DNA of 64,000 nucleotides, from assembly GCF_019649055.1 (NCBI RefSeq), contig NW_026570231.1, forward strand, positions 1,364,001-1,428,000, given 5' to 3'. Under the pieces are notes generated by a model. That model ran no database searches and was not told the DNA's origin. It was given only the letters and a program-made list of their open reading frames with translations. A program made the position numbers and the translations under genes. Shown in pieces: positions 9,561-30,612 of this stretch (its first letter is position 1; each line of letters opens with the position of its first letter). This DNA is from Paramacrobiotus metropolitanus. Its lineage: Eukaryota; Tardigrada; Eutardigrada; Parachela; Macrobiotidae.

Positions 9561-10976
9561 CTATTCCATCTCATTTGAGTCGTCCTCGCCATCTCTTGGC
9601 GGGCGCTTCTTAGCGCTTTCCGGTTGATTACGGTCGGACGTTCGGTCAACTGGTTCCGTTAAGTCAACTTCCATGACCTTTGCCGGGTCAACTTCCCGCT
9701 GGCCACGACCTTTCCCTTGGCGACTTCGTTTAACCGCCTCAACTCGATGGCGTGCGTCATTTTCTTCCAACCGCAATCTTCGATTATTAGGGTCATCTGC
9801 TAATCGACGTTGTACATCGGCGAGATTGTCTCGAAGCTGCTGGTTTCGTAGGCCACGTCGTCCTATCTGGTTAGGGGCGCGTTCTGGGCGTCGGTCGCCT
9901 TTGTTGACCAGAAATTCCGTTATGTAAACGTCGACTCCATCCACTGGTTCGACATAATCGCTCCCCATGGTGTCTTTAATTCGATTGATCCTCTCTTCCA
10001 CCTGGGAGGCATGGCGCTGTGTAAGATTGCCCTTTTCCATTCGTATCTTGCACTTTTTCAACGCCTTGCGAGCCGTGTGGGCTATCCCGACATGTTCCAT
10101 GGGTTCGCCCAGCTTCGCCACATGAGGTCGAAAGAGCGGTGGGATATCGTCCTTCATGGTATTAGATACCAACTGATTCTGTGTCTTGTAATGTGCCAAT
10201 CGTGCAGCAAAGACCTTCTGCCCCATCCTTTTTGCGACATGGTCTTTAGGATCCACTTGCAATCCTATCGATGCCCTTGCTGCAAGCAACTTGAAGGCTG
10301 GATTCACATGTCGTAAAACGAACTGAGCCACATATTCTTGTCGTTCGGGATAGTCTCTGTAATAGAATTGCGTCATCCCGACTGGGTCAGTCGTATCCAG
10401 TGGTACATCCAGTAAACTCAAATCCAATAGGCTATGTAACCCGTTCCGTCGAATAGGGAGATAACAATCCCTTACTGAATCGCGGGGGATGTATAATCGA
10501 CGGAAACTTCCTTGTTCCACTCCCTCTTTAATTTCTTTCGCATAGCCCGAATCGAATAAAAATTGACGCAGCTGATTCAGAATTGTGTGAATCTTATTCG
10601 CTTCCGCTGAGCCATCTTCAATCCCCATGTATCGACAGATTTCCGTCTTTTGTTCATCAGTGTCGTTCATATGGTATTCAATGTCGATAGTATCAGGGTG
10701 CCGATTATCGAATCGGGAAGTCGTTCGCCGGTCGCTTTCACGTCGTTCAGCCGGTTTGCGCTGACTTTCTTGTGCGCTTCGTTCTCCTGATTCTGACTGC
10801 GGCGATTCATTACCCGCCGGTGTAACCGGTTGAAGGTCACTGTCCAGAATTACGTTTCGTCGATGCGTCACATTTTCTTGGGGCGTCAAATCCGCGACTG
10901 AGCTGGCCCCTTCCATCGGGCCATCTTCTTGTACCGCATTCACGATTGGGTTCACCACGTGGACTGTTGACTCCAT
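9561..10976 (-). CDS. retroelement accessory ORF, 471 aa, unknown
   Basis: ATG at 10976 to a stop at 9561, the last ORF of the element. About 100 disordered residues with E/R/S bias come first. A probable folded core follows at residues 105-330, with a helical stretch IHTILNQLRQFLFDSGYAKEIKEG and then RRLYIPRDSVRDCYLPIRRNGL and QFVLRHVNPAFKLLAARASIG. The C-terminus is a charged, nuclear-signal-like tail (KRSRQGKGRGQRE, KKRPPRDGEDD). The upstream frame (10952-11269) seems to run into it through a one-base break at 10952-10976. The frame is uninterrupted over 1.4 kb. In retroviruses this position would hold env, but there is no signal peptide or membrane span. I recognise no family. Confidence 0.6.
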   Translation of the reverse strand: MESTVHVVNPIVNAVQEDGPMEGASSVADLTPQENVTHRRNVILDSDLQPVTPAGNESPQSESGERSAQESQRKPAERRESDRRTTSRFDNRHPDTIDIEYHMNDTDEQKTEICRYMGIEDGSAEANKIHTILNQLRQFLFDSGYAKEIKEGVEQGSFRRLYIPRDSVRDCYLPIRRNGLHSLLDLSLLDVPLDTTDPVGMTQFYYRDYPERQEYVAQFVLRHVNPAFKLLAARASIGLQVDPKDHVAKRMGQKVFAARLAHYKTQNQLVSNTMKDDIPPLFRPHVAKLGEPMEHVGIAHTARKALKKCKIRMEKGNLTQRHASQVEERINRIKDTMGSDYVEPVDGVDVYITEFLVNKGDRRPERAPNQIGRRGLRNQQLRDNLADVQRRLADDPNNRRLRLEENDARHRVEAVKRSRQGKGRGQREVDPAKVMEVDLTEPVDRTSDRNQPESAKKRPPRDGEDDSNEME

Positions 10977-11269
10977 TCGCTGATATTTCGGGGTGAATCT
11001 TCCCGTTCCGCACTCGATGACGTTTTGCTCGCGCCAGATTCGAAACCCGCATAGTACTTAGCTCTCTCTTGCCATCTCTTATCATGTGGGTCTGGCGTTC
11101 GATTTCGTGTGCGCTCGCGTCTCTTGTCCCATGACCTTTCGGGTGTTGCCATCCTAACGTTACGATTACAAAACCCAACTCCCAACGGCACCTGATGACC
11201 TTCCTTTTCAGGTTCTGTGCGGTATGATTCCGCACGCCGTTGTTCCTCGCGTCCTCTTGTTGCGACCAA
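10952..11269 (-). CDS. retroelement accessory ORF, Arg/Glu/Ser-rich segment
   Basis: A 105-codon frame of highly charged, RS/RE-rich sequence (RGREEQRRAES, DKRRERTRNRTPDPHDKRW). It probably belongs to one disordered protein with the segments on either side, separated by single-base shifts. No domain is recognised, and the first codon is not certain to be the start. Confidence 0.35.
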   Translation of the reverse strand: MVATRGREEQRRAESYRTEPEKEGHQVPLGVGFCNRNVRMATPERSWDKRRERTRNRTPDPHDKRWQERAKYYAGFESGASKTSSSAEREDSPRNISEWSQQSTW

Positions 11270-11310
11270 AATCTTTGCCGTGTCGATTTTCCGCTGAATA
11301 GTAGTTTCCG

Positions 11311-11694
11311 TTATTTCATTTCCGTGGCGTACCCAGCCTCTTCCGCCACGATAATCGCGATCACGGGAACGTTCGCGTGACCTTTCGCTGCGGTAATCCC
11401 GTGTCCTTTCACGGGATATTCACGTGACCTTTCACTTCGTTTCTCAGAGGTTCGTTCATGCTCCCTTGAATGTCCGCGTGACCTTTCTCTATGCGGAGGA
11501 GATCGAGGTCGTGTAAACCCCTCATCCCGTTCGAAACTTCTGAGCGCCTGCAGCACATCACTTTCGGTTTGGCGAGATTTGCGTAATGCGTCCATACGTC
11601 TTTCAGTTTCCTTCTTTATGTACGGTGCTGGAGCAAACCCCTTCTGCAATCGCAGCTTCTCCCGCAATAGCGCGTCAAATAGTTCCTGTTGCAT
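11311..11694 (-). CDS. retroelement accessory ORF, coiled coil plus RS-like tail
   Basis: A 127-codon frame from an ATG at 11694. Residues 1-50 are helical (MQQELFDALLREKLRLQKG), followed by an SR/ER-rich tail (RERSRGHSREHERTSEKRSERSR). Several RS and KGH units are produced by AAAGGTCAC copies at about 11378, 11424 and 11474. The upstream helical region (11700-11945) is in a different frame, consistent with indels. Confidence 0.35.
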   Translation of the reverse strand: MQQELFDALLREKLRLQKGFAPAPYIKKETERRMDALRKSRQTESDVLQALRSFERDEGFTRPRSPPHRERSRGHSREHERTSEKRSERSREYPVKGHGITAAKGHANVPVIAIIVAEEAGYATEMK

Positions 11695-11945
11695 AGCGGC
11701 CGGGTCGTTTGTCAGCGTATCGATCTGAATGATAAGAGACTGACGTATGAGCTGCGCTTCTTCGTCGTTTAGGCTGGCTGTAGGTACAGCTGGACTCGAC
11801 GTGCTAGACAGTGCCTCCCGTGCGGCCTGTTCGCTTGCCCTTTGGTTGTCCGCGTTCCATTTTCTGACGTCGCATCTTCTCTTGATCTTCCTCGAACTTC
11901 TTCCGGTATGCGTCCGTTTGTGGGCATTTCAGTGGCTCCAGAGTC

Positions 11946-12356
11946 TCATCCCAGCCACTTTTCGTTGTTCTGGATCGCTTCCCGGTAACGATCCTCGAGT
12001 AGCATTCGCTCTTCTACTGGGATGCTGCCGTAATTCCTCGCACTGATGAGGTTTCGAAAAACATCTAAGTTCCCACGTTTGGCTTCCCTGATCCTAACGA
12101 GTGAAACGATGTGTGGATCACCCAACTTGTGAATACATGTATAGCAGGGGAATTTCTTATCGACCTTTTTGTTATTCCGTAAACAGTCCGGACACTTTGG
12201 GTTATAGCCCGTAGATCTGTTTATCTCTGATGCCGTTCCTAAGCTTTTAGTGGTGGCTTGACCTTTTTGTGCCATTTTCTCCGTTTGAAATCTGCAATCA
12301 AAAAAACAATCCGTCATAGTAACTTTTCCGCGTTGATCTTTTCCATTCCTATCCAT
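11946..12356 (-). CDS. retroelement accessory ORF with zinc-ribbon-like CxxC pair
   Basis: First ATG at 12356; the frame ends at 11946. Its centre holds two CxxC knuckles, CPDCLRNNKK...KFPCYTC, about 14 residues apart and followed by H, an arrangement typical of a small zinc ribbon. The rest is helical (RIREAKRGNLDVFRNLI, EERMLLEDRYREAIQNNEKW). It breaks after NEKWLG, where the next frame continues with acidic helical sequence. The zinc ribbon may bind nucleic acid; this is inference from the cysteine spacing only. Confidence 0.4.
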   Translation of the reverse strand: MDRNGKDQRGKVTMTDCFFDCRFQTEKMAQKGQATTKSLGTASEINRSTGYNPKCPDCLRNNKKVDKKFPCYTCIHKLGDPHIVSLVRIREAKRGNLDVFRNLISARNYGSIPVEERMLLEDRYREAIQNNEKWLG

Positions 12357-12640
12357 TATCAAGGCTTTCTATCATTTTTACGCCTATTCCGTTACTGAGC
12401 TGAGACTTTCCTAGCTCCTACTGCCCTCTCCATCGCCTTAACGTGGTGACCTTTCTCACGTTATCAGCACTTTCTGACTACTGTGATTTTTTCTATTAGT
12501 GTCTTATCGTCATTACTTCTCGAGTTGACCTTTTCCCTTTCAATTTTCCGTAGAATTTTTCTCTTTCGTTTTGAACTGTTTTATGCTTTTTACTGTAATA
12601 TGCAGGGTTCATTACTCGCTGCACATTACACTCGTCCCAT

Positions 12641-15568
12641 TCACTCAGACTCCTTCGCCGGCGGTTTATACGGCTTGAAGTCAACTCGGCCATCCTGGTT
12701 AATATGAAGCACTTCATCTGCAATCAATGCTTCAACGGCATTCTTGATCCATTCTTTATCGTTCTCGATATTCAATTCTCCCAATTCATAATGGACGGCC
12801 ATGAAGTTCGAAAGGTCATTCCATGACGCTCCATTGGTACCGCCGATGGCGTCCAAAGCCACGTCTGTGATGGCTATCTTCCAGGCCTCTAGCTCCATTT
12901 TCAGTCTGGGTGTGCGATCCTGGCCCTGTTTCGGAAGGTAGTAAATAACCTTGTTATCCTTGTTATATTTACATCCCAGTCTTCCTTCCTTATATGCTCT
13001 TTTCAAGACTCGCTCGGTCATGCTGAGTGATGATCTTCCATTCGAGTTTTCAGCGACTTGTCTTTTCAGATGCACACCAAGCATCTCGCCTTCGCTAATA
13101 TTCTGAAGTACAGCCTGGACTTCGCTCCATGTCCGGGTAGTCACGTCCAACGGTGCTCCTAGCGTATAATCTGTCGCCTCCTTTGTCTTCGTAGTACTAG
13201 ATTCCGTTTTCTGGGGGGATATTGCCGAGTCCGTTGGGTCGGTTGTCTCTGTTTCATCAATCCTCAGTTTTTCCAACGAACCAGATGATGACTGAGCGGA
13301 TTTCGGTTCATCGGTTTTCTTTTTCTGTGGCAAAGTCTCGTGACCTCCCACTTCACATGCCGACTTCGATCGCTCTTTCTCAAAAGCCTCCTTCAATGGT
13401 GCGAACAATGATTTCTCATACACCTGTCGCGTGGCGGCCGCTTCTGCTTCTGCCGCTACCTTGTCCATCGGGAGCATAACCTTTTCTTTTTCCCGTTTTT
13501 CAGAAGTCCCATGACCTTTCGGTTGAGTTTCTTCCGTCGCAGTGCCAGATGTCTCCTGACCTTTATACTTTTCTGTCGTCGGTTCCAAAGGCGTTGGGAC
13601 AGAAGTGTCATCGTCACTCTCTTCCGATTCCACGTCCATCGGCCCTTTCATTTTCGTCGCTTTCTTAGAAGAAGCCTGAGCGGCTTCTTCTTCAGCTGTT
13701 AGCGGTGCGATCCGATTCAGTATGGGAGTTGTCGGATCCCCACTCGATGGCACAATTTCCATCTCCTGACTATCGGACATATTACAATGGACTTGTTTTT
13801 CCGGCGGTATCAGGCCTACCCTCGTGTATCGGATCGGGTATCCTTTATGTGCGTTTGTTGTGGAAATGATGTTCTGTTTTATCATCCTCGCCAACGCGCG
13901 TTCAGTGGCCGTGTCGATTTCCTTTATCATGCCTTTTCCGTCATTCCAAACAGCATTGATGTATTGGCTGTTTCGGTGGCTCGTTGACCTCAACGGGCTT
14001 GTCATTCCCGCGATTGCCCTTTCTACTCGCATAGAGGTATCTTCATTTGGAGTCGTCAGCGCCTTATCCGAACTTGACGGTCTGAATAATTTAGCCTTAT
14101 ACGCAAAATTCGGATGTTTCTGGAGAAGTTTTCCCGCATTCCGAGCGTATTCCAACACCACATCGAACTTCTGTTTGGTGAAGCTACCGTGCATTTCCTT
14201 TCTCAAATATTTCTTTAGCCCCGTTCTGAATTTCGATGTTACTGATGTCGTTCGTATTCGTGTAAAATTCTTCTCCGCTCCATCAAATGCATCGATGATT
14301 TCGTCAATCGTGGTCAAATTATCGCTGTCTGGATCTTCAAATTCCGCTTCATCTCCCGAGTAATCGAGTTCACTGTCACCGTCCGGTTCGATATAGTTGG
14401 CCATTGCTAATGCGTCGATTTTCATGGCCTCCTTCCCTTTATTTTTCGGCTTTGCGGGTTTGCTCTTTACTTTCTTCCCTTTCTCCAGAACCTCCGCTAG
14501 GCTTCTTGGTTCTGTAGTTTTTGATCGCGTCGTTTTAGGGTCCGTATGTGACCTTATGCTAACCGTTGAAGTGCTTGGTAGGCTCACTTCCGACGCTTCT
14601 GATTCGCGGGACGTCTCCCGTTTCGCTTTCTCACGCGTCCCTTTCTCTCTGCGCCCTTTCGTAGTGGATGCTGAAATAACGACTGGAACAATCTGTTTCA
14701 CAGCTATGACCTTTCCCTTGGATGTTGACGGCTCAGGCTCGGTGACCTTTAACTTTGATGTAGCCGATTCGATAACAAATTTCTTTGGGATTATAGGTGT
14801 GGATGACCTTTCTTCCCCTTCGCCGGCTGATTCGTCCAATATTTCAACATCATGAGACGACGGTTCGTCTTTCTTCTTTTTCTCTCCCTTTTTTCTCCGG
14901 GTGCTTGTGCTCTCGCTTTCATCACCGCTCTTTTTCTTCTTATCACGGTTCATGGCTTCTTCCAGTTTAGCCGCTTCCCTCGGTTTAACGACCACTTTTG
15001 GAGGCTGATTATCTTCCTCGGCCATCTCATCATCTTCATCGGCCGGTTCCTCTGCCGAATCGTCGTTAGCTTCCTCCTCTTCGGAATCGTCCTGTTTCGA
15101 TGGTCTCCTGGAACTCTCCGTTCCTGCCGCTTCGGCTACGGAGGTCTCTGCCATCTCTCCGGCTCCGCTTTCTTGTGCCGGGTGTTGGGCCTGAATTTCC
15201 AAATGTGGTGTTTCTTTTGTCTGTCCCTGTGTGACGATCTCCCACAAAGGGTTTTTCTTCGCGTCATAGAACACCGTTTTGTACGCTCCATTTTCCGTTC
15301 TCCTTGTTAGTCGGAAATGGGCTTCATCTACCTCCGCCCGATGTCGCATCATGCTGATCAGTGCATTCGCTTGAACTAAAGGATCTTGACGTTCACTTGC
15401 TGGTATCAAGTTCCACAGTTGTTCTAATGCTGCCCGATTGGCATGTTCGGCGCTCTCTTCTGGCACGTCCCATGGGGCGTATGGGATTGGATCTCCTGTT
15501 ATCGGATCGACGATTAATGCGGTTATGCAATCCGTTGTTCCATCGCTGAAGTGGAGTGTCAGCGTCAC
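12641..15568 (-). CDS. retroelement accessory ORF, 975 aa, disordered with C-terminal winged-helix-like domains
   Basis: The longest post-integrase frame, uninterrupted for 2.9 kb. The first codon listed is GTG and the coding frame probably starts upstream across a break near 15570-15776. Residues 1-130 may form a small folded domain (LHFSDGTTDCITALIVDP). A long acidic and basic low-complexity stretch follows. Around residues 420-600 are helical blocks ending in a wing-like strand (YPIRYTRVGLIPPE). The last 150 residues hold two winged-helix-like units: EVQAVLQNISEGEMLGVHLK...VIYYLP and AITDVALDAIGGTNGASWNDLSNFM...VLHI. The second resembles the linker histone H1 globular fold in spacing, which is a weak resemblance. 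A DNA- or chromatin-binding role is my inference. Confidence 0.55.
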   Translation of the reverse strand: MTLTLHFSDGTTDCITALIVDPITGDPIPYAPWDVPEESAEHANRAALEQLWNLIPASERQDPLVQANALISMMRHRAEVDEAHFRLTRRTENGAYKTVFYDAKKNPLWEIVTQGQTKETPHLEIQAQHPAQESGAGEMAETSVAEAAGTESSRRPSKQDDSEEEEANDDSAEEPADEDDEMAEEDNQPPKVVVKPREAAKLEEAMNRDKKKKSGDESESTSTRRKKGEKKKKDEPSSHDVEILDESAGEGEERSSTPIIPKKFVIESATSKLKVTEPEPSTSKGKVIAVKQIVPVVISASTTKGRREKGTREKAKRETSRESEASEVSLPSTSTVSIRSHTDPKTTRSKTTEPRSLAEVLEKGKKVKSKPAKPKNKGKEAMKIDALAMANYIEPDGDSELDYSGDEAEFEDPDSDNLTTIDEIIDAFDGAEKNFTRIRTTSVTSKFRTGLKKYLRKEMHGSFTKQKFDVVLEYARNAGKLLQKHPNFAYKAKLFRPSSSDKALTTPNEDTSMRVERAIAGMTSPLRSTSHRNSQYINAVWNDGKGMIKEIDTATERALARMIKQNIISTTNAHKGYPIRYTRVGLIPPEKQVHCNMSDSQEMEIVPSSGDPTTPILNRIAPLTAEEEAAQASSKKATKMKGPMDVESEESDDDTSVPTPLEPTTEKYKGQETSGTATEETQPKGHGTSEKREKEKVMLPMDKVAAEAEAAATRQVYEKSLFAPLKEAFEKERSKSACEVGGHETLPQKKKTDEPKSAQSSSGSLEKLRIDETETTDPTDSAISPQKTESSTTKTKEATDYTLGAPLDVTTRTWSEVQAVLQNISEGEMLGVHLKRQVAENSNGRSSLSMTERVLKRAYKEGRLGCKYNKDNKVIYYLPKQGQDRTPRLKMELEAWKIAITDVALDAIGGTNGASWNDLSNFMAVHYELGELNIENDKEWIKNAVEALIADEVLHINQDGRVDFKPYKPPAKESE

Positions 15569-15572
15569 TTTC

Positions 15573-15950
15573 CTACACGTTCCCTACACGACTCGTAATC
15601 GTCCAATGTTCGTTTATTCGGATCTGGGTCTGCTGTCGGTTTTGAGCGAGTTCTCTTTGATCAACAGTTTGCCATCCGTTGTGTATGTATATGCCATGGT
15701 CATCGTCTGTGCCTACTTTGATACGGATCCATGCATCTTCTTCGGTTGCAACTTTAGATACCACGTGCTTCATCATCTGAACGATAACTCTTGGGTTATG
15801 ACGTTCTTCTGGGGAATAAACTGTAGCGCCTCATTGACTATCGTTTTGACTCTTTCCCAATGGCATCCTTGACTGACCTATCCGCGAGGGGATTATACGA
15901 GTCGATCTCTTTGTTCGTTTTCTTATCGACTATTCGTGCGGTGACCTTTC
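15573..15950 (-). pseudogene. retroelement accessory coding region, frame-broken
   Basis: A 67-codon minus-strand frame at 15573-15776 (DDHGIYIHNGWQTVDQ) appears to continue into the 975-aa ORF through a one-base shift within two near-identical GTGTAGG units at about 15573-15593. Upstream, 15780-15950 shows coding-like composition without a long frame. It is probably the true N-terminal part of the 975-aa protein. Confidence 0.3.
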
Positions 15951-16158
15951 GTTCTCTATGGTCTTCGCCAGTGTACTTGGCCGTGAAGCTTCTACACTTC
16001 GGAAATCGAATTTGACCTTCTGTTCCAGCTGGTGTGGGTGGCGCGCTCTTTTCTACCCACTGGGACTGGGCCTTGTGGCTTTGCCGGCTCAGCTGGTGTT
16101 GCTTTACCTGACGTGGCCTTCTTCGTTCGCTGCCCTTTCTTGTCAGTTTCTTTTGGGC

Positions 16159-17632: not shown

Positions 17633-17905
17633 TTATTTGTTCTCTCGTCCTTTAGTTATCCGATCAAGAAGTTCTTTCTCGGCTGCATCCTCAGGTTCGC
17701 CTTTTGGGTCAATAAGTCCGTAGGGGTCGGTTTCTTTTTTCTTCTGTTTGGCTTTCCGCTCGTTAATTGCTTTCGCTATATCACGGCCCAATTGTTCAGC
17801 TTTTGATTTGACCGCTTCTATCTCCTCTTCTCTCTTTTTTATGAGGTCATTCTCATTACCGGTAACAGTGCGTGGTTCGAAAAAATTCGGGTCACGCTCT
17901 GACAT
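17633..17905 (-). CDS. retroelement small ORF after the integrase, 90 aa, with FEPR motif
   Basis: ATG at 17905. Starts MSERDPNFFEPRTVTGNE and continues as a charged coiled coil (IKKREEEIEAVKSKAEQLGRDIAKAINERKAKQ). The FEPR-T/S-A/V-T peptide recurs in the region just upstream (about 17960), in the ORF at 23778-24194, and as FEPPLLPE/SEPPPLPE at the integrase C-terminus. The repeat is visible at DNA level as GTGGTTCGAAAA. Confidence 0.4.
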   Translation of the reverse strand: MSERDPNFFEPRTVTGNENDLIKKREEEIEAVKSKAEQLGRDIAKAINERKAKQKKKETDPYGLIDPKGEPEDAAEKELLDRITKGRENK

Positions 17906-18070: not shown

Positions 18071-19576
18071 TCAACTTGATTGTGACTGCTGTTTCGAAAT
18101 CCTTATCCTCTTTCTTCTTTCTTCCTCTTTTCTTTGTAGATTTGTTTTCTTTTCCATTTCAGGTAGCGGAGGTGGTTCTGAAAAGGTTCTTTTGAGGAGT
18201 ATGCTCTGCGCCCTTATCCACTTTTTTTCCCTTTCAGGTAGCAGAGGTGGTTCGAAAAATTGATTGGTACCATTTTTCGAAGCAAGCTCGGCTTCTTCCG
18301 TTTTTTGTCTTTCGTTCACCGTTCGTTGCGAATCTTTCTCGTCGGGTAATGGCGGATGCCACGGCTTTAACCGATCAATAGAAACCACTTTTAGATCCGC
18401 TTCCTTCTTCGGATTCTGCTCGATGACCTCCGCTTCGTTTGTTCGCGGGAAGCTAAGAATTTTCCACACTTTATCGTACTTCGACTTGAAATCCGACTGA
18501 TTTTCTTTTTTTCCTTGTTTAGTATCTTTTGGAAGTCGTATAAGTACCAAATCGCCCACCTTGAAATTCGGCTCCGATTTCTTCTTATTATAAATTTCCG
18601 CATTTTTCTCATATGCGTCTTTGATGTTACATCTCGCCACTTCTTCGGCAAAGGTCAAGTTCTTTTTCATGGTCTCCACCCATTCGTCTGGAGTTCCGTA
18701 ATCATCGGGTATATTCGTTTTTGTAACCACATCTTCCGGCATTGTCATTTCTCTGCCGTGTAGCATATAGTATGCTGAATATCCCGTTGTGGCGTGCACG
18801 ACTCTGTTCATCGCCGAAATAACATATGGGAGATACTTGTTAAACTTTCGCTCATTTCCCGCTTTTAGGTATTGCGCCAAGCCATCAGCAATCGGTCTGC
18901 ATCTGTCTTTCCACTTGGCCTTGACCTTCTGGATGATACGCCGTTCCAAATGTGTGTTTAATTTTAAACACATTGGTGACCTTGTCAATACTTCGGCTGT
19001 GAAGTGCCGTCCACGATCCGTATGTAGGATGTGCGGTGCTCCGTGTACCAATATCACGTGCTTCACGAAGACTTTCGCGAATTCTTTAGCCGTTGCTGTC
19101 TTCATTGGTACCGCAATCACATATTTCGTCAGTTGATCAATAAACACCGCTATGTATTTGTATCCACGTTTCTTCGTTGGCAACAGCGGTCCTTCAAGTC
19201 CGCGTAGACTCGGAAGAATGGGTGTCCAACTTTATCTCCTGTAGTTTACCGGGTGGGCATTTCCTCGGTGTTTACGGAATTGGCATCCTTGGCAAGCAAG
19301 TATGTAATTCTTCACGTCAGTGCTCATTCTGTCCCAATAGTAGCGCAATCTTATCGCTGACAGAGTCTTTTCAAATCCCAAATGGCCTGCTGCTTTCTCG
19401 TCGTGCAATGCGTGGATTATCGCTCTTCGCATTGACAACGGTACCAACATATGACCTTTCAAGTTTTCCATTTTATCCTTTACTCGGTATAATATGCCAT
19501 TCCACAACTGGTAATGCACTTCAAATTTCGATCTTGTTTCCGCGTCTGGTAGATGTTCCAGTTCGTCTATGATCAT
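18071..19576 (-). pseudogene. Ty3/Gypsy integrase region, frame-broken
   Basis: The N-terminal HHCC zinc domain is at about 19232-19480 (HALHDEKAAGHLGFEKT ... CQGCQFRK). The core starts at 19183 downward with the first Asp in AVFIDQLTKY and the second in HTDRGRHFT. The stretch holding the catalytic Glu is out of frame. Two single-base shifts about 100 bp apart (near 18985 and 18890) move the segment between them, so the listed frame has unrelated residues there and the DDE triad is lost. Further shifts lie at about 19230 and 19190. The C-terminal part (KVGDLVLIRLPK ... IDRLKPWH) is an SH3-like/GPY-type integrase tail. It ends in an extension with FFEPPLLPE and FSEPPPLPE repeats. Confidence 0.85.
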
Positions 19577-21680
19577 TGCCAGATGAGGATCTTTCAGCTG
19601 TTTGTTCGCAATTGCAAGTTTGAGTCATCAACCTCTTCTTCGTCACCTTGCAGGTTGACAATGCGAACTGTCGCTGTACTGAGTTCATTCCAATCCTTGA
19701 TGACCTTGCATCGTGGTAACGGTTTATACCGCTTTTCGCCTGTTTTGGGAATCTCAACAGTTTGATTGGGCATTCGTTCAACGCTTGTGCCACTTTGTCC
19801 GTTTCCCAAAGGTCATCTCTATTCTCCGCTCTATCATCAAGTCCCGTGACCTTTCCATTCTGCGTTTGAGATTCCGCGTCAAGTCCGGTGACCTTTAAGT
19901 CACTAACGGCGGGCAACCAGCTTCTCACTCGGTTCACTTTTGCTTCGTTTTCAGCCGACTCGTTCGCCGTAGCTGAAGTGACCTTTAATCGCTTCTCTCT
20001 CTGTTCCACCATCTGCAGGAACAGCTGTCCAACTTCAATTGCCGGTTCCTTCGTATCAAACTCCTTCTTGTAATCCTCGAAATTCGGAATCTCGTCAAAT
20101 TCTTCTTCGTGACACGTCGGACCTTCAATTGGCGCCCTTGATAACGCGTCCGCATTGTCACAGTACTTTCCCGGTTTGTATTCAATTTTAAACTGGTGAC
20201 CTTGTAATGCCATTGCCCATCTTGTCAATCGCGGGTTCATTCCGACTTTATTTGTCTCTGACCTTAGCAAGTTCGTCAACGCCTGATGATCCGTCCTTAC
20301 GGTGAATTCTGCGTAATCTAATGTACGGCTTGAATTTCCTGACAGCGAACACTACTGCCAGACATTCCCATTCCGTTACACCGTAATTCTTTTCAGCTCC
20401 ATGTAGAACACGACTGGCGTACGCGATCGGATGTCCATCTTGTGACAGCACAGCTCCAATTCCTTCTTTACTTGCGTCGCATTCGATTACGGTCGGTTTT
20501 GCAGGGTCAAACTTTGCCAATACCGGACCTTCACATAACAGTTGTTTTAGACTGTTGAACTCTTCTTCATGCACTGCAGTCCAGTCCTTTTTCACGTGTT
20601 TATCTTGTCTCAGCAACTCATACAAGTGGCAAGTCTTCTGTGCGTATCCCATTATGAACTTGCGATAATAATTCGCCAGTCCAAGGAATGACCTTAGTTG
20701 CCTTTCTGTTTGAGGCCGTTTGAACTCTGAGACCGCGGTGACCTTTTCCGGATCCATTCGAATTCCATCTTCACTGAGTATGTGACCCAGGAATCCCATT
20801 TGTCTCATTCCAAATTCGCATTTCGTTGGCTTAATCGTGAATCCCGCTTCAACCAGGCTCATTAAGACATTTCTCAAATTCTGCATGAAAATCGCCCAAG
20901 TTTTTCCGGCGAAGATTACGTCATCGATGTACCCGAAAACGCAACCCTTTCTTTTCGCTTTCGAGCAATACTTTTTGTCCATGCACAGTTGAATGCTGGC
21001 CCATTGCAAACTCCAAATGGCATTCTTTTAAACCGGTACATTCCATCTTGCGTGACAAAGGTCGTCTTATTGATTGACGCTGGATCCATTGGGATCTGCC
21101 AAAATCCACTTTGTAGGTCCATTTTTCCATAATATTTGTTGCCTGCGCACGCGTCAAGCAATTCATCCGGGTTTGGTAGCGGGTAGTTATTCTTTCTCGT
21201 TAGCTTGTTAAGCATGATGTAATTGACGCAAAATCATGTTCCCATTGTTCCGTCGCCATTTTTTCTTTACTGCCAGCACGACTGGGAAACTCCACTCGGC
21301 ATCTGACGGTTCAATTACATCTTGTGCTAACATTTCTTCGATATGTTTCGTTATAAACTCACGGCCTGTCCAACTCGTTCTGGCCGGGTTACATTTTACT
21401 GGTTTCGCATCTCCCGTATCGATTACATGAGTGACCCCTTTCACATCTCCATACGGTTTCTTTGATGTGGGTAAAACCTTCCAGAATTCCCAAAACGCGT
21501 TGTACACGTCGTTTTTCTGCTCTTGAGTAAGGTCAGGTCCCAATTTCAAGTTTTCGATTATCTTTTAAGTTCAGCTTTCGTTGTCTCATCCACCTCAGGG
21601 TCCTCGAGTACGTTCTTTACTGTCCCTGCGTTGACCTTTACATTCTCCATATGTTCGTACGGCTCAACGTATCCGAGAAG
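19521..21680 (-). pseudogene. reverse transcriptase and RNase H region, frame-broken
   Basis: Order along the minus strand: a connector (about 21560-21680), RT fingers (PSDAEWSFPVVLAVKK, 21208-21549), palm with KMDLQSGFWQIPM and FKRMPFGVCNGPA (20916-21215), YIDDVIF catalytic motif and LGHILSEDGI (20248-21009), thumb/connection LRSFLGLANYYRKFI, and RNase H with ECDASKEGIGAVLSQDG and NADALSRAP (19521-20279). Frame breaks of one base occur at about 21552, 21260 (after the KKK run), 20990 (after CNGPA) and 20305 (after KPYIR), plus a TGA between the fingers and FCV at about 21240. Motifs are otherwise well kept. It would make cDNA from the element RNA if intact; as read it is non-functional. Confidence 0.88.
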
Positions 21681-22423: not shown

Positions 22424-22448
22424 CTCGACCGGCGGACATTCCTCACCG

Positions 22449-23777: not shown

Positions 23778-24194
23778 TTAGCCGTCTTTTATTTCCAGTG
23801 CCTCTGGTACTGGGATAGGCTTTGCCCACTCCATGTCTGGCACAAGAGATTGTTTCGCTGCAACTGCCGCTTCTTTCTGTGTGGCAATTATCTCTTCAAT
23901 CGTTGGTGACCTTTCGGTAGCAGGTCGTGGTTCGAAAAAGGGTTCCTTTTGAGATTCACGTTCTGTTACTTCCTCTTTGGTTTTATCTGAAAGCCTTTCA
24001 TTTTGGGTAGCAGATCGTGGTTCGAAAAGGTTCGAATTACGCTCTCGTTCCAAGTTCTCAGTTGCTGGTGACCTTTCGTCTTCCTTTCCCAGTGCCTCTG
24101 GTACTGGGATAACTTTTCCGACTTTTCCATTTTCATTTTTCGTTTCCAGTGCCTCTGGTACTGGGATAATTTCTTCCTGCTGCACTTTTGTCAT
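23778..24194 (-). CDS. retroelement ORF with IPVPEAL and FEPR peptide repeats, 138 codons
   Basis: The frame ends at TAA 23778. The frame is open upstream of the ATG and already encodes another IPVPEA unit, so the ATGA overlap with the protease ORF is best seen as a one-base break near GAGAAAAGG (about 24222). The sequence alternates IPVPEAL with FEPRSAT/FEPRPAT units. The IPVPEA units derive from a DNA hairpin repeat. Confidence 0.4.
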   Translation of the reverse strand: MTKVQQEEIIPVPEALETKNENGKVGKVIPVPEALGKEDERSPATENLERERNSNLFEPRSATQNERLSDKTKEEVTERESQKEPFFEPRPATERSPTIEEIIATQKEAAVAAKQSLVPDMEWAKPIPVPEALEIKDG

Positions 24195-24366
24195 TCCCGG
24201 TGCCTCTGGTACTGGGATGACCTTTTCTCTCCCTTCTGTGCCAGCAAGGTCCGATTTAATGTCTTTTCGATCTCCTGCTGAATCATTTGCAACTGCTCAA
24301 ATGGTGACAATTCTTTTCGCGTCATCTTTTTCTTTTCGTTTCCCGGTGCCTCTGGTACTGGGATTA
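23795..24366 (-). repeat. five copies of a 21-nt hairpin repeat inside coding sequence
   Basis: The unit begins CCCAGT (or CCCGGT), continues GCCTCTGGT and ends ACTGGG. It occurs at about 23799, 24098, 24150, 24197 and 24344 on the plus strand. Each can form a stem of about 9 bp (CCCAGT/ACTGGG plus CC/GG) with a TCT loop, on either strand. It encodes the IPVPEA(L/P) peptide. Confidence 0.75.
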
Positions 24367-25894
24367 GCGTTTTATTAACCATTTGAGCATTTCCCGTCTG
24401 TTTTACAAGTTCGGTGACCTTTCCGACTTGAACTTTGGCGACTGGTTTTGGGTCGTCTTCTTTCTCTTCTTCACCTTCGTTATCCATTAGTACGAATTTC
24501 TTTTCCAAGAAGTCAAATCCCAATAACACTTGTACGTCGTCACACTTCGGTCGGACGTAGAATGAATGTTCGCTAGTCTTTTTCCTTAAGGTCACTGGCG
24601 CTACACAGTAGTGCGTCACCAGGAATCCTGACGTTCCGCTAATTCCATTTATTTTCACCAATCTGTCAGGTGGCAATGGGAGCATGTGGAGTCCATTCTT
24701 CTCGCAAAACGGTTTGCTGATCAGCGACGTCTCAGCGCCAGTGTCCAACATTGCGTTGACCTTTATGTCTCCCACTTTCACTTCGTGTGTGTACGCTTCA
24801 ATTCTCTTGGGCAGTTTTCCATTTTGAATCTTCAAAGTGTGAATCTTACATTTCACAGGGATGAGCGATACTGGTCCTGGATCCATATCGGGAAGCACTT
24901 GTCCTTTTGCTGGAGTGCTATGACCTTTCAATATCTCGCTCAACTTATCAATCCTGTGTGGGACGTCAGTTCGAACATCGTAATATTTTCGCGGCTTTGT
25001 CTTTTCCGATTGCTTCTCTGGAGCCATTTTACCACTGGTGGCCTTTTGCACATTCCGCACTTGCTCATTTGCTTTTGTGCTGTGCACGTGACCTTTAGTC
25101 ACTTCATTTATCGTCTGATGGATTAGTTCCTCTTTACGGTTTTCATTTCGCTTATCTTGCATCTTCTCAATAACTTCACTTGTTATTTGGTCAGCTTGCT
25201 TCAATTCCTCTGCTTCACTATCTTTCATCTCATCTGGTGACCTTTCATATGTAACCATGTCATATCCCTTTTCGGTCATCCATTGCATCACTTTTGCAGA
25301 TACTTCATTGTTCGTTTTCGTTGGGTCAATTTGCGAAGACATCCCGTCTGTTCGGGCTGGTGACTTGTCATTGGCATCCTTTTGCAGTGCTTGTGATAAG
25401 TCCCGTGACCTTTCAACTGCGCTACTCTGTTGCGTTTGCGCTATCTCATTTGACCGTCCTTTTTGTTCATCTTGCGCTAAGTCCTGTGACCTTTCGTTGC
25501 GCTTCATGACAAATCCGCCACCTGTCAGCTTTTGTATGGGGACTTTTTCTCCATAATTCGGCGGTTTATCCTGTGGTGGAGCATTACGTGAATGATTCCA
25601 GTCAGCGAATGTCTTCTTATATTCCTCTGGATTGAATACTGGGACTGGGTTCGATGACCTTTGCGCTGGTTTCCCGGTAACCAACTCTTCCAGTCGCTTT
25701 CTTTCACATTGCGTTCGCAACTGTTGCATGTCCCAGTAGTCCTCTTGTGACATTCTCGCTTTCTGCTTTGCTTTCGGCGTCACAGGTATCCACATCCCGT
25801 GATTGCCATTCGGTCTGTAGGCCACTTTTTGCCACTTCTCCTTCTGTTGTAATGTTACTGCGTCCACAAGTGAGTCGTCGGAGTTCTGTGCCAT
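24191..25894 (-). CDS. retropepsin-containing ORF of the retroelement, 567 aa
   Basis: ATG at 25894, uninterrupted 1.7 kb. The first 330 residues are charged and low-complexity, with Arg/Lys/Gln. The aspartic protease follows at about residues 370-490: the catalytic LDTGAETSLI, a flap-like region (INGISGTSGFLV) and the hydrophobic LLGFDFL near the end. In Ty3/Gypsy elements this dimeric protease cleaves Gag-Pol inside the particle. The C-terminal tail carries one IPVPEA unit before the frame breaks. This is the best preserved enzymatic domain of the element. Confidence 0.85.
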   Translation of the reverse strand: MAQNSDDSLVDAVTLQQKEKWQKVAYRPNGNHGMWIPVTPKAKQKARMSQEDYWDMQQLRTQCERKRLEELVTGKPAQRSSNPVPVFNPEEYKKTFADWNHSRNAPPQDKPPNYGEKVPIQKLTGGGFVMKRNERSQDLAQDEQKGRSNEIAQTQQSSAVERSRDLSQALQKDANDKSPARTDGMSSQIDPTKTNNEVSAKVMQWMTEKGYDMVTYERSPDEMKDSEAEELKQADQITSEVIEKMQDKRNENRKEELIHQTINEVTKGHVHSTKANEQVRNVQKATSGKMAPEKQSEKTKPRKYYDVRTDVPHRIDKLSEILKGHSTPAKGQVLPDMDPGPVSLIPVKCKIHTLKIQNGKLPKRIEAYTHEVKVGDIKVNAMLDTGAETSLISKPFCEKNGLHMLPLPPDRLVKINGISGTSGFLVTHYCVAPVTLRKKTSEHSFYVRPKCDDVQVLLGFDFLEKKFVLMDNEGEEEKEDDPKPVAKVQVGKVTELVKQTGNAQMVNKTLIPVPEAPGNEKKKMTRKELSPFEQLQMIQQEIEKTLNRTLLAQKGEKRSSQYQRHRE

Positions 25895-25946
25895 TTCATT
25901 ATTCTTTGCTGCGCTGTTCGCAGTGTCAAGTCTGTTTCTTGACCTT

Positions 25947-26267
25947 TTAACACGACGCTATCGCCGTGACCTTTATGTTCACACCTGCTCCGTGACCTTT
26001 CGCTTGAACTTTTCCAACAGAAGGTGACCTTTCATCTTTACTAATGACGGTGATATTCTGCTTAATCCATTCTTGCCTTATTCGCTTCTCTTCTTCGTCT
26101 TCTGAACAATTCCAAAACTTTGGCTTTGGTTCCCCGTAACAATCGCAACTTGGCTCCTTCGCCTTATCGTTTTCTGCCAAAAAATTTCCGGAATTTCGCG
26201 TGTTGCTCATTTTCCTCTTGCGCAGTATCGTTCTGCGGTGGTGAATTTTGGTCTTTCGATTTGCCAT
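25947..26267 (-). CDS. retroelement ORF, 106 codons, charged with Cys pair
   Basis: Overlaps the end of the previous frame by about 100 bp. Basic start, then CDCYGEPKPKFWNCSEDEEEKRIRQEW. Three AAAGGTCAC copies lie in its last 60 bp (about 25966-26030), giving ERSP and KGH. Likely part of the gag-pro linker broken by indels. Confidence 0.3.
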   Translation of the reverse strand: MANRKTKIHHRRTILRKRKMSNTRNSGNFLAENDKAKEPSCDCYGEPKPKFWNCSEDEEEKRIRQEWIKQNITVISKDERSPSVGKVQAKGHGAGVNIKVTAIASC

Positions 26268-26830
26268 TTATCTGTTTCCGAAACCATTCGTGGTGCATTT
26301 CCACTTCTTCTGCGGTTTCAGTTTGCGGTTTCTTTTGGTTTAACAGCGCTTGTCGAATCTTGGCATTACGTAATGCACGACGTTCAGCTAACACTTTCTC
26401 GCTGCAATACGGTGACCTTTCATTTTGCTGCACTTTTTGCAGTGTCGCGCTACCGTCACGACAATTCCCACTCGCAGTACCATTCTGCGGTGACCTTTGG
26501 TCCCGTTGCACGTTTCCACTCGCAGTACCATTCTGCGGTGACCTTTTATCCACTTGTACTGGTTTCCCGATAACCAGTTCTTTTTGCTGCTGTGACGGCA
26601 TCCTTATAGCCGTTTCAATTTCCTTTTGCAATGACGACATCCATTTAGCCGTCTCAATTTGCTGTGGCGGCATCCATCTAGCCGTTTCTTGTGGTTGCGG
26701 CATCCATATAGCCGGTCCATTTTGCTTTTTCGCTGACGGCATCCGTATAGCCGTCGCAGTGGTCACATTCACTACAGTACCATTCTGCAGTGGTGACCTT
26801 TCCCTCTTATCCGGTGGTTTAGGGTCGGGA
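26164..26830 (-). CDS. retroelement ORF built from a decayed minisatellite, about 220 codons
   Basis: The frame is open from about 26830 to a stop at 26164 with no clear ATG (first listed codon is GTG at 26772). The N-terminal part is a run of five related units (TAIRMPS, PAIWMPQ, TARWMPP, TAKWMSS, TAIRMPS), then two NGTASGN units containing the ERSP/QRSP made by AAAGGTCAC. The C-terminus is helical and charged (EEVEMHHEWFRKQI). Linker between nucleocapsid and protease. Confidence 0.4.
26460..26770. repeat. minisatellite of about 35-50 bp units within coding sequence
   Basis: Units containing GGCATCC(T/A)TATAGCCGT or close variants recur about five times in 26590-26765. A 47-bp unit with CGCAGTACCATTCTGCGGTG recurs at about 26467 and 26518, with a relative at about 26775. 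All stay in the coding frame. Confidence 0.75.
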
Positions 26831-26831
26831 C

Positions 26832-26861
26832 GATCAGTAGGCTCACCGGTGCCTACTGATC
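26832..26861 (-). other. 30-bp near-perfect palindrome at the nucleocapsid stop codon
   Basis: GATCAGTAGGC and its complement GCCTACTGATC flank an 8-nt centre (ACCGGTGA on the coding strand). The 11-bp stem contains the TAG that ends the zinc-knuckle ORF in its 5' arm. Downstream coding resumes in another frame. Confidence 0.7.
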
Positions 26862-27397
26862 TCGCCCGTTTCCCTGAACCGGCGCCCCACCTTGTTGCGC
26901 GCCCTGCACATTTCCTTGCACATTTCCTTGTCCGTCGTTATTTACCGGGACATAGTTTTGTCCGCCTCCATTATTCTGGCCACCACCATTATTTTGGCCA
27001 CCACCCTGTTGGTAGTTTCCGCCTCCATTTGCACCGCCTCGGTTGCCGACCAATTTCCGCGGCCGAAGCCTCTGTTTCTTCCTCTGAAGCCGCCGCGGCC
27101 GAAGCCACCACGGCCGTAGCCACTATTCTGGCCACCGCCATTTCCATTATTCCCGTTTCCTTGTTGATTTGGGAAGTTTGCCCGAGCCTGATACCATTGC
27201 GCAATCAGGTCATATCCATTTGCCACTGCCTGTCGCCAACCGCCCATGCCGCGCAATCGTTGCCACTCGTTAAAGGCGAACAGGTTCGGGTTCTGTTCCG
27301 GTGGTGTGTTGGCGAATTTGCATCCCTGGGTTTGGTGGTTGCCGTACATACAATACTGGCACATCTGCACACCATTTGCAACCCATCCATCGATCAT
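26856..27397 (-). CDS. nucleocapsid-like segment: CCHC zinc knuckle and Gly/Asn/Gln-rich tail
   Basis: Reading from 27397, the knuckle CQYCMYGNHQTQGC fits C-x2-C-x4-H-x4-C, the retroviral-type RNA-binding motif. A folded stretch (FNEWQRLRGMGGWRQAVANGYDLIAQW) and RG repeats (GRGGFGRGGFRGRNRG) follow. The RG/GGQNN composition continues in a second frame from 27053 to 26853, so a one-base shift lies near 27055. The ATG overlaps the gag stop as ATGA, but the frame is also open upstream of it, so gag and this segment may once have been one ORF. RNA packaging role by homology. Confidence 0.65.
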
Positions 27398-30300
27398 CTG
27401 AAACTTGAATTCCGTCCGTGACCCTGGTTCTGCTGAAAGTTATTCTGGTTTCCTCTGTTTGGCTGAAAGTTGCCTTGACCTTGACCTTGTCCCTGATTCT
27501 GGAAGTTCCCTTGACCTCCATTCCAATTTCCGTTTCCATATCCATTTCCGCCAAAGTTTCCATTTGGCATTCCCTGTTGCGGTATCGCTACGTTCGGTGG
27601 TGCCACATTCTGGGGTGCCGGTCTCACTTGAGCCGCCGCTTGTATCGCCGCCACCATCGCGTATGTTATTGGCTGCCCCGTCTGGCCATCGATAAAGGTC
27701 ACTCTTTCGGTGACCTCTCTTACAGGGGTTTCCGCGCGAAAATCCATTTGCTGCTGGGCTGGTGCAGCCGCCATTCTCTGTTGCGGTACATTCTCCACCT
27801 GGCCTTGGCGGATAGTCACGTATTCCTGGTTACGTTGACCTTTTGGCGCCTTGTACTTTTCATCTCCTGTTGCCCAGTGTCGGAAAAAGTCCTTTACATC
27901 AGTCGGCGTCTTACACTTTTGTATGCGCAATGCCTTATAGAGTTCATTGTCTCCTTTGCATCCCTCGATTAAGAAGCCAACTGCCTGCTTCTCAGTGATG
28001 ATTCTCTTTGCTTTGAATCGCATCATCGCTTGGTAGTACTGGTCAAGTGATTCCTTTCCGAGTTCGAACTTCCTTGCATAGGCCTCTCGTAAGCCTAAGA
28101 CTTCTTCGTCTCGGTCACCATACTCGTCTTTGAATTTCTCCATCCATTCTTTGACTGTGTACTCGATTCCGTCTTCTGATGCTATGTCCTTTTCTCCTTC
28201 GAACCAACCTTTGGCCGGCCCTTTTACTGCGGTGGCTATTTCAATCATTATTTGCTTATCAGTAAGCTGGTAGGTATCCTGGGTTTCTTTCACCAATCTT
28301 GTCCAACCATTGACGGTGTCACGGCTGCCATCAAAGGTCATCAGAGGTGTTTTCCGAGCCATGGAATCGAGCGCTTTCGCTAATGCGAACCCCCCTCTCA
28401 GGTTGTCTTCTTCTTCGCTGCTCTCATCATCGTTTTGGTTTCGCCTCTGCTTTGCGTAGCGGGATTTCCTCGGACGCTCCTGCCGACTAGGGGGTCTGTC
28501 CCGTCGCCCTTCGTCGATGAACGCGTTGACTTCGATATGTGGGGGAAATTGTGAAGGTTCACCTCGGCTCGAGTGTGAATAACCTGATGGTGGTTCCTTA
28601 TCCTTATCGTCTTTGACCTTTTCACCGTCTTGTTCTGCTTTGACATTTCCTCTGCCAGTGCCAGTCCGTAAGGGCATTTCAAAATGGAAGCTTTTGCCCG
28701 TGCCCGTTTCATGCGCCTTGCTGTAACTGGGCGGGGGAGACTCCACTGTTGCCGTCTTCACTCCATATTGCAGGAGTTGTTCGTCCTTATGTTTGACTGA
28801 CGTTTGGAGTGCCTTGTTCTCATCTTCCAATCGTTTAGTTCTCAGTCGAAGTTCTTCTCTTTCTCTCTTTAGATCAGAATTTTCCAGGTTGACCTTTCGT
28901 AAGTGTTCGTGCAATTTAAAAGACTCCTGCTGGGTGACCTTTTCATTTTCCTGTTCCATCTTTTTGATGTGCTCGACCAGCTCACTCGTTTCATTTTCGA
29001 GTTGCTGATACTGCCCAGCGGCTGATCTCAGCTGATCCTTGATTGCGATCAACTCATCATCTTTTGCCAATGCTGTGGTGGTCATCTCGACGAGGTCAGT
29101 GTTCAGCTTTGCAATCTCCTGACTCTTTTGAGCGACCTGTTGTTGCCACTCTTTGTCCTTCAGCTCCAATGTTGTGACCATTGTGTCCAGTCGCCGTGCT
29201 TCCTTCTGCCATTTGAGTCCTTCCTTAGTGACCTTTTCAATGTCTTCTGTGACCTTTTCGTTCTCCTGGTTGACCTTTTTGATTTCTTCTTTCAGGCGTG
29301 CTCCTTCAGTGGCTGTAATGTCTCTTGCCTCTCGCATCGCCTTGATTGCCTCATTGCGCGACTTTTCAGCTTCGTCAGCCCGTTCCTGATGACCTTTCGA
29401 TTCGAGTTGCAGAGTACTGACAGCCTCCTCCCGTAGCTTCAAGTCATTCCTTAGTTTGAACGTCTCCGTTGCCAGTGTTGTCAACCGTTGTGTGACCTCT
29501 GCGAATTTGGTCGCGTACTCGTCCCGTTTAGTTTCAGCTTCAGTGACCTTTTGACGCAACTGGTCACACTCGTCCTTCAATTCCGCTAAGTGCCGTGACC
29601 TTTCTGCTGATTCCTCTGACATGCTTTCATTAAGGTCACTGACGGCGAGATGACCTTCCATTTCTCTGTCATCTGCCATCTTTAGGTACTCTTCTGCAAT
29701 TTCCTTTTGTCGCTCATATTTGACTTTCCAACCGTCTGCGGAGCTCTGGAGGTCACCCTGTTGCTGTTCCAATTCGAATAAGCGAGTTTCGAGTGTCGAT
29801 AATCTGTCTCGATACTCCTGTTTCCGCTTGTCCGCCTGACGTTCAGTGGCATCAAGTTCATTTTCCAGCTCCCTTACGCGTCTCCTAAGAGTTAACGTAG
29901 GACTGTTTGGTGACTGTGGTCGTACATTGATAACCTTTCCATTCTGTGTCCGGTCAATTAAATGTTCGGGGATATCCTTAAACGGGGTCACTTCTTCTGC
30001 TCGGTCAGCCTCTTTCATTGCAGTTTGAAAGGACATATTCATCGTTGCGTCATCATCTGTGAAGTATGACTCGTTGGATTCATCTGAGACCATTGGAGTT
30101 GCAAAAAGGTCATCATCTGCCGCTTTCTCATTCAATGAAAGGTCATCCAATCCCAATTCAGTCAATCCCTCTTCGGTGACCTTTGTGTTTCTCTCTTCCA
30201 CTTGAGCCAGGTTCACATTTTTATCCTGCTCATGCGTTCCGCTAATGGTAGCATCCAGCTGTGATGCTCCAACTGGTTCCACTCCTTTCCCTGTGGGCAT

Positions 30301-30612
30301 TTCCTCCCCGGTGACCTTTTTCTGGTTCATCGGATGACTTCCCGCCGCAGATGCGGGAGTATCCTTTCCGTCACCGCTGGAGCTCTCCTCATTCTGTGTA
30401 GCTCCAAGCGCCACTTGGTATGTGCTATCACTGCCTTTGCTGTCTTTTCTTGCAAAGGTCACAGCCGCTCGGGTCTGTCTATCATGTCCGACTGGACGCG
30501 CGAGCGACTTATATTCCTTCTTATATGGATCAACTGCGCTTTGTTGTGATCCTCGGGAGCTCCTGCTTCCCTGACTGCTGGTAGATGTCGGTTCCTCTTG
30601 TTCTTTGTCCAT
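27394..30612 (-). CDS. gag: Gag polyprotein of the retroelement, 1072 aa, long coiled coil
   Basis: ATG at 30612, uninterrupted 3.2 kb. Residues 1-220 are disordered. Residues about 225-620 form a very long coiled coil (RRRVRELENELDATERQADKR, then many heptads with EKVTEDIEKVTKEG). Residues about 750-935 are a Ty3/Gypsy-type capsid domain (MARKTPLMTFDGSRDTVNGW, KGPAKGWFEGE, EEWMEKF-like helix, YARKFELGKESLDQYY, VGFLIEGC). The tail is Asn/Gly/Gln-rich and leads to the CCHC knuckle. Capsid assembly and RNA packaging by homology. The 400-residue coiled coil is far longer than in ordinary Gag and its KVT/KGH units come from AAAGGTCAC copies. No frame lesion is seen here, unlike pol. Confidence 0.85.
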   Translation of the reverse strand: MDKEQEEPTSTSSQGSRSSRGSQQSAVDPYKKEYKSLARPVGHDRQTRAAVTFARKDSKGSDSTYQVALGATQNEESSSGDGKDTPASAAGSHPMNQKKVTGEEMPTGKGVEPVGASQLDATISGTHEQDKNVNLAQVEERNTKVTEEGLTELGLDDLSLNEKAADDDLFATPMVSDESNESYFTDDDATMNMSFQTAMKEADRAEEVTPFKDIPEHLIDRTQNGKVINVRPQSPNSPTLTLRRRVRELENELDATERQADKRKQEYRDRLSTLETRLFELEQQQGDLQSSADGWKVKYERQKEIAEEYLKMADDREMEGHLAVSDLNESMSEESAERSRHLAELKDECDQLRQKVTEAETKRDEYATKFAEVTQRLTTLATETFKLRNDLKLREEAVSTLQLESKGHQERADEAEKSRNEAIKAMREARDITATEGARLKEEIKKVNQENEKVTEDIEKVTKEGLKWQKEARRLDTMVTTLELKDKEWQQQVAQKSQEIAKLNTDLVEMTTTALAKDDELIAIKDQLRSAAGQYQQLENETSELVEHIKKMEQENEKVTQQESFKLHEHLRKVNLENSDLKREREELRLRTKRLEDENKALQTSVKHKDEQLLQYGVKTATVESPPPSYSKAHETGTGKSFHFEMPLRTGTGRGNVKAEQDGEKVKDDKDKEPPSGYSHSSRGEPSQFPPHIEVNAFIDEGRRDRPPSRQERPRKSRYAKQRRNQNDDESSEEEDNLRGGFALAKALDSMARKTPLMTFDGSRDTVNGWTRLVKETQDTYQLTDKQIMIEIATAVKGPAKGWFEGEKDIASEDGIEYTVKEWMEKFKDEYGDRDEEVLGLREAYARKFELGKESLDQYYQAMMRFKAKRIITEKQAVGFLIEGCKGDNELYKALRIQKCKTPTDVKDFFRHWATGDEKYKAPKGQRNQEYVTIRQGQVENVPQQRMAAAPAQQQMDFRAETPVREVTERVTFIDGQTGQPITYAMVAAIQAAAQVRPAPQNVAPPNVAIPQQGMPNGNFGGNGYGNGNWNGGQGNFQNQGQGQGQGNFQPNRGNQNNFQQNQGHGRNSSFR

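Follow-up and report, generated by a model that had tools for sequence, protein, structure and literature searches.

We found that a long terminal repeat (LTR) retrotransposon of the tardigrade Paramacrobiotus metropolitanus carries one exact eight-base word, AAAGGTCA, dispersed through its leader and its coding region, and that copies of the element keep this word as nucleotide sequence. The element lies in a stretch of 64,000 nucleotides (contig NW_026570231.1, positions 1,364,001 to 1,428,000 of the forward strand; hereafter the window), to whose full length the positions given below refer. It is Ty3/gypsy-ordered, with protease, reverse transcriptase (RT), RNase H and integrase in this order, and its provirus is at least 23 kb long. 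The comparisons described below strongly support the conclusion that selection acts on the nucleotide word itself, in any frame, spacing or orientation, and not on a peptide. That a nucleic-acid word is under selection, whoever its reader, we regard as highly probable. On the sequence evidence, a host nuclear receptor would be the likeliest reader, with a protein encoded by the element as its main rival.

A sequence-only reading of the window had estimated by eye about sixty words on the plus strand and 15-20 in the opposite sense between 9561 and 30612. The exact plus-strand counts in this interval, 62 TGACCTTT and 16 AAAGGTCA, bear the estimate out; the interval misses 12 further words of the opposite sense at 30686-31196. 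The two groups of words are as follows.

9561..30612, no single strand: dispersed body words; on the coding (minus) strand, 62 AAAGGTCA (sense) and 16 TGACCTTT (antisense)
30686..31196, minus strand: array of 12 coding-strand TGACCTTT in the leader, partly in tandem units of 28-59 nt

The body counts are far above Markov expectation. For the coding strand of 9561-30612, models of order 0, 1 and 2 predict 0.81, 0.85 and 1.65 occurrences of AAAGGTCA, and 0.09, 0.16 and 0.17 of TGACCTTT. With the orientations merged, the word is the top 8-mer of the body, both against the order-2 model (78 observed, 1.81 expected) and against synonymous shuffles of the open reading frames (ORFs) used (62 observed, 4.4 expected). 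One-mismatch neighbours of AAAGGTCA occur at most six times each in the body, as compared with the 62 exact words. The body words differ in their flanking sequence; a few of them lie inside short repeats (repeat D12). Outside the element, no word was found in 1-9560 and one each in 31240-41882 and 51237-64000, and 31240-32540, on the LTR side of the element, has none. The exception is a pair of ORFs at 41886-51237, with 6 sense words and 1 antisense word, to which we return below.

The sense words of ten ORF pieces, two of which overlap slightly, fall in all three reading frames (9, 10 and 20 words), as the sequence-only reading had stated. The codon-shuffled controls that it had proposed were run on 13 ORF pieces. 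Protein-preserving synonymous shuffles gave on average 3.9 sense and 0.39 antisense words, against 49 and 14 observed, and none of 2000 shuffles reached either the sense or the antisense count.

The leader, about 1.5 kb between the LTR and the first ATG near 30612, has its word array just upstream of the first ORF, and all 12 words are opposite in sense to the main body word. Leader sequence was matched in at least 40 places of the genome at 85-100% identity, the window's own included (40 were scored among 133 first-look candidates), and 30 copies were aligned over the leader and early gag. These copies have 10-14 leader words each. Eleven of the window's 12 leader sites are present in 27-30 copies, with a diversity of 0.00-0.03 against 0.03-0.20 in their flanks; the twelfth, at 31111, is present in 17 of 25. 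The block on the LTR side lacks the word in 28 of the 30 copies. The other two, with 2 and 5 words there, are, judging by locus length, probably the shorter loci L019 and L023, in which the array would itself fall in the block.

The body words were followed from the window into six copies, positions with flank identity below 0.65 or gaps above 15% being excluded. Among the copy pieces, L050 shows no match to the element, and L046 and L049 have large deletions. Where the flanks are 75-85% identical, 62 of 69 words survive (41/47 in the first half and 21/22 in the second), compared with 24% and 21% for 8-mers other than the word. Where flank identity is 65-75%, 16/25 and 11/16 words survive, against 8% and 13%. 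The sites at 25662 and 23430 are one mismatch away from the word in all or most other copies.

Pooled over 21 sites (sites present in fewer than 15 of the 30 copies were excluded), the minor-allele frequency is 0.132 one base before the word, 0.000-0.034 across its eight bases, 0.032 at the ninth base and 0.122 at the tenth. The footprint, as read from these alignments, is nine bases with sharp ends, AAAGGTCA followed by a base other than G. Its first base is strict: among 616 site-copies it is A in 602, T in 9, G in 5 and C in none. At third codon positions of gag, the mean minor-allele frequency is 0.251 outside the words (n=442) and 0.031 inside them (n=24). The frozen third positions, the sharp footprint and the survival of the words between copies identify the nucleotide word as what selection acts on. 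The claim of the sequence-only reading that the word and not the peptide is kept thus stands on the shuffles, the copies, the nine-base footprint and the third codon positions alike.

Two related elements of the same genome gave divergent results. Alignment to the body of the window element covers 6.0 kb of E8 (C1:198000-219950; 75.4%) and 10.1 kb of E3 (C1:99238-120193; 74.2%); word survival was scored in the parts alignable by blastn, more diverged parts being left out. Of 20 aligned words, 15 are retained in E8 (background 9.6%), whereas of 34 only 1 is retained in E3 (background 9.5%); the Fisher p for the difference is 2.5e-8. E8 has in all 61 sense and 19 antisense words over a body set at 16.7 kb, and E3 one sense and one antisense word in 19.4 kb. 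The ORFs of E3 are long and open (1129, 950, 807 and 666 codons), and its leader retains two exact words. An element of this kind can thus do without the words. The sequence-only reading had named the lack of the word at these sites in other copies as evidence against its claim. The closer copies and E8 keep the words; E3 lacks them at homologous sites, but constraint on the word is absent there altogether. A coding tandem array of eleven to twelve words, with spacings in multiples of three, was also seen in E8 (L054:5504-5715).

Active purging of the word in E3 is not supported (1/34 vs 9.5%, p 0.15). At sites where the window and E8 agree, E3 keeps 1 of 13, vs 24%. E3 has 36 one-mismatch neighbours where 15.6 are expected; of 400 permuted words, 2 show as high a ratio. 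This excess is a hint that E3 may have lost words; the three-way comparison leaves the polarity undecided.

Among all hexamers in both orientations, the top one of E3 against synonymous shuffles is GAGATC (46 vs 14.7). A degenerate form, [CG]AG[AC]T[CG], which was picked post hoc with the data already seen, occurs 198 times in E3 vs 97.6 (standard deviation 8.0) and is at chance in the window element (60 vs 56.2) and in E8 (42 vs 40.9). The non-coding leader of E3 (1 kb) has 10 AGATCA in either orientation vs 1.06 simulated (maximum 6 in 2000 simulations) and 8 GAGATC vs 1.20 (maximum 8), some of them in a short tandem run. These counts, from a single E3 copy, are a lead that E3 may use another, weaker word around GAGATC, which would amount to a code switch between sister families.

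Words were also counted in the whole genome (169.8 Mb, 533 contigs). AAAGGTCAC occurs 9725+9689 times and its reversed control 1754+1707 times; the counts for AAAGATCAC are 923+890 vs 665+705. CAAGGTCAC, at 917+978 against 974+897 for its reversed control, is at control level. Four of eight word-centred loci (L001, L002, L006 and L007) have isolated words and show no similarity to the element pieces compared.

The sequence-only reading had equated the word with the monomeric nuclear-receptor element NBRE and had placed the sites of FTZ-F1 and ERR close to it. FTZ-F1 and ERR sites have a C or a preceding T at the position of the word's first A. The strict first A, together with the control-level count of CAAGGTCAC, speaks against sites of that type. 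The other part of the claim holds: AAAGGTCA is exactly the NBRE, described in the available part of PMC4777543 as the monomer site of NR4A nuclear receptors.

The sequence-only reading had suggested a coat, either of a host receptor or of a DNA-binding protein from the element; both are treated here as hypotheses. We consider it somewhat short of an even chance that the word is bound by a monomeric host nuclear receptor of the NR4A/HR38 type, which would coat the provirus or the complementary DNA (cDNA). The element DNA would then carry a dispersed cis-code, a nine-base double-stranded site in about 90 copies across leader and coding region. A receptor of this type, proposed from the motif, would occupy the sites, and the provirus, or the cDNA prior to integration, would be coated end to end. 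The leader array might act as a promoter-proximal enhancer or insulator, by analogy with the Su(Hw) sites of gypsy. The body words may each add a small benefit, by helping a provirus of 23 kb or more to stay accessible or, alternatively, by having the cDNA carried into the nucleus by a protein with its own import signal. The partner protein would be exchangeable, since the sister family E3, without this word, seems to use another. In its wider form, this would be a family-specific DNA address code, written through the genes in every frame and recruiting one sequence-specific protein, in which sister families switch from AAAGGTCA to a GAGATC-type word; this form is, in our judgement, a possibility rather than an expectation.

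In favour of such a receptor, the host genome has 63 zf-C4 matches, counted exon by exon; the available part of a published survey gives 42 C4-type proteins in this species (PMC12941274). Several points weigh against it. NR4A was not identified among the five host receptor domains read. Two of the five are clear (ERR and COUP-TF), and one is about equally close to NR5A2 and NR4A2 (86.8 and 84.1 bits). The remaining two are probably FTZ-F1-like and NR2E-like. A host receptor would be shared by every family, and E3 nevertheless makes no use of the word. Several words in gag are missing from part of the copies (29397 in 11 of 30, 29257 in 11 of 30 and 29278 in 9 of 26), and word-to-word distances tend to be multiples of three (p 0.008). 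AAAGGTCAG is somewhat enriched genome-wide (1925+2117 vs 1213+1214), a tandem array contributing part of this excess. The benefit proposed for the body words is a guess.

It is also conceivable, if unlikely, that the word is read by a DNA-binding protein of the element itself, for example the product of a 3' ORF, which would coat or condense its own cDNA or provirus and co-evolve with the word. The window family and E3 share one host but have different enriched words, and the apparent code switch therefore fits this explanation well. Element-specific ORFs do lie 3' of the integrase: a four-cysteine finger occurs in the window family and in E3, with a similar ORF in E8 by eye, and a 980-codon ORF has a sub-threshold linker-histone match. 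However, no recognised DNA-binding domain reaches the cut-off in any 3' ORF, and the word equals the site of a well-known host factor. In addition, words persist in L046 and L049 (27+10 and 11+10 in the pieces analysed), from which much of the 3' region is missing.

The remaining explanations concern whether DNA is read, and whether anything is. Enrichment over local composition is 78-fold for sense and 180-fold for antisense words in the window, and 99- and 266-fold in E8, where 9 of 12 sense and 6 of 8 antisense words are retained. G directly follows 3 of 123 sense and 0 of 35 antisense words in the bodies of the window element and E8. Because both orientations are enriched, are kept and avoid the same flanking G, double-stranded DNA is probably what is read; this evidence is good, not conclusive. 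No fixed spacing between words was found, nor any helical phasing at 10.0-11.0 bp, which fits monomer binding. A role in RNA packaging, which the sequence-only reading had offered, is disfavoured by the same facts about the two orientations. More broadly, the word might work at the RNA level: its many copies could signal packaging, export or stability, or leader GUGACCUUU could pair with body AAAGGUCAC. This would account for the unequal strand counts (body, 62 against 16; leader, 0 against 12) and for leader words that are complementary to body words. Such an asymmetry, however, is expected from an A-rich coding strand, and the scarce one-mismatch neighbours include those that would allow G-U pairing; we regard an action in RNA as improbable. 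That the words are functionless products of a mutational process, tandem-repeat spread, gene conversion or a mutation cold spot seems very improbable. The partly tandem leader words, the few body words in short repeats and the E8 array would suit it, but the body words have differing flanks, and the sites at 25662 and 23430 look like point-mutation gains or losses. Moreover, the word is unprotected elsewhere: a cold spot was rejected on E3, which keeps 1 of 34, and on the neighbouring ORFs, whose second copy keeps 1 of 4 (background 0.296). Conservation of a recurrent peptide such as KVT deserves almost no credence. Its frame is the commonest (20 of 39), but the other frames and the antisense direction are used and the leader is non-coding; the synonymous shuffles and the frozen third codon positions led us to reject it.

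The element itself was delineated as follows; its reading frames are broken in several places and were left as found.

32088..32443, minus strand: 5' LTR, borders approximate; 85-86% match to 3'-end pieces of copies L046 and L049
32076..32087, minus strand: primer-binding-site-like TGGTAGCAGAGC, directly after the LTR, read from the sequence
27397..30639, minus strand: 1081-codon ORF, gag-like by position and coiled-coil-like; ATG near 30612
24194..25957, minus strand: aspartyl protease ORF (PF13975, E 2.5e-8)
20251..21027, minus strand: RT end and RNase H piece (PF17919, E 1.6e-32; PF00078, E 9.8e-7)
19524..20351, minus strand: RNase H piece (PF17917, E 1.5e-5)
18074..19231, minus strand: integrase core (PF00665, E 2.1e-8)
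12644..15583, minus strand: 3' ORF, 980 codons, no family assigned; linker-histone-like end (PF00538, E 0.092, below cut-off)
11949..12368, minus strand: 3' ORF piece with C-x2-C-x12-C-x2-C, a pattern also in L045, L047, L048 and E3
9101..9470, minus strand: 3' tail common to other copies, 82-86% match to L046 and L049

Similarity among the 30 copies stops near the LTR. No 3' LTR was found within the window, by blastn or as a reported repeat of 40 nt or more. TGGTAGCAGAGC may be the primer site, presumably complementary to a tRNA 3' end; no tRNA was matched to it. The gag-like ORF has no Pfam match below 0.01; a CCHC knuckle lies near 27361, just 3' of it. The RT end and RNase H piece has 1493 related proteins (best identity 50%), and the relatives of the RT region include proteins named transposon 17.6 Pol. 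An HHCC motif lies near 19405, upstream of the integrase core. Fold prediction for the end of the 980-codon ORF was unusable (predicted local distance difference test score 42). The zinc-finger scan gave only the CCHC knuckle and the integrase HHCC; the C-x2-C-x12-C-x2-C pattern was spotted by eye and then pattern-searched, and the resemblance of the E8 ORF to it was likewise judged by eye. The E3 ORF with this pattern and the similar E8 ORF match no Pfam family. L046 and L049 are deletion derivatives, in which much of the 3' ORF region is gone and the tail and an LTR piece are present. Two other repeats were seen within the element: a 56-nt repeat present five times in the coding region at 23787-24390, with core CCTCTGGTACTGGGA, and a second, dispersed one ending GTGGTTCGAAAA at 17844, 17931 and 23989.

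Beyond the element, two long ORFs of 1390 and 1301 codons lie on the minus strand at 41886-51237. The first has bacterial filamentous-haemagglutinin repeats (PF13332, E 3.3e-9), here in a tardigrade genome; the second has no relative at E 0.001. The filamentous-haemagglutinin-like region has one further copy, at C133, with 84% identity. The 6 sense words of these ORFs exceed the 0.55 given by synonymous shuffles (0/2000), but they were not counted, because the second copy keeps 1 of 4. Three related kelch-gene copies lie at 32849-37708, 54926-57440 and 59122-62472, the first of which begins some 400 bases away from the element's LTR end.

The arrangement has partial counterparts in known systems. 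The insulator of the Drosophila gypsy element is located in the 5' leader. According to the available part of PMC2493044, it is a cluster of twelve Su(Hw) repeats. The present leader resembles it in having about a dozen short clustered repeats (12, at 30686-31196) in a gypsy-type element. It differs in that the word is the NBRE-like octamer AAAGGTCA and not the Su(Hw) motif, and in that the coding region contains about 80 more words; the likeness is one of layout, and the array may or may not act as an insulator. The copia leader has a repeated enhancer motif. Association of MOF with the untranslated leader region of copia is reported in the available part of PMC2443393. Both are LTR elements for which a regulatory leader can be considered, but copia is of another type, and the same part of PMC2443393 describes no word running through its coding region. 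The likeness to the NBRE extends, as far as PMC4777543 is available, to the identical octamer, the required first A and a partner spacing that is not fixed. Unlike the NBREs of host genes, which are single regulatory sites, the present words form an array. We know of no NBRE arrays of this kind. Bacterial DNA uptake sequences and Chi-like words are likewise short, exact words at high density, scattered over coding regions and conserved at the DNA level. They are bacterial-chromosomal, however, with other words and machinery, and an uptake or repair role is not indicated here. Nothing comparable running through the coding region of a retroelement was found in the open-access literature searched by chosen terms, as far as its texts were available. 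Leader arrays of binding sites are known in retroelements; we know of no other in which about 80 copies of a single exact word are retained across gag, pol and the ORFs downstream.

If the proposed code is real, it would be the first family-specific address code, and its change in E3 the first code switch, known in a eukaryotic mobile element. The words are kept at the expense of codon choice, which would imply strong cumulative selection for a protein along the DNA of a mobile element. With the word-keeping E8 and the word-free E3 in one genome, the tardigrade would offer a natural experiment on the role of such a coat in expression, in escape from silencing and in the nuclear entry of a very long cDNA.

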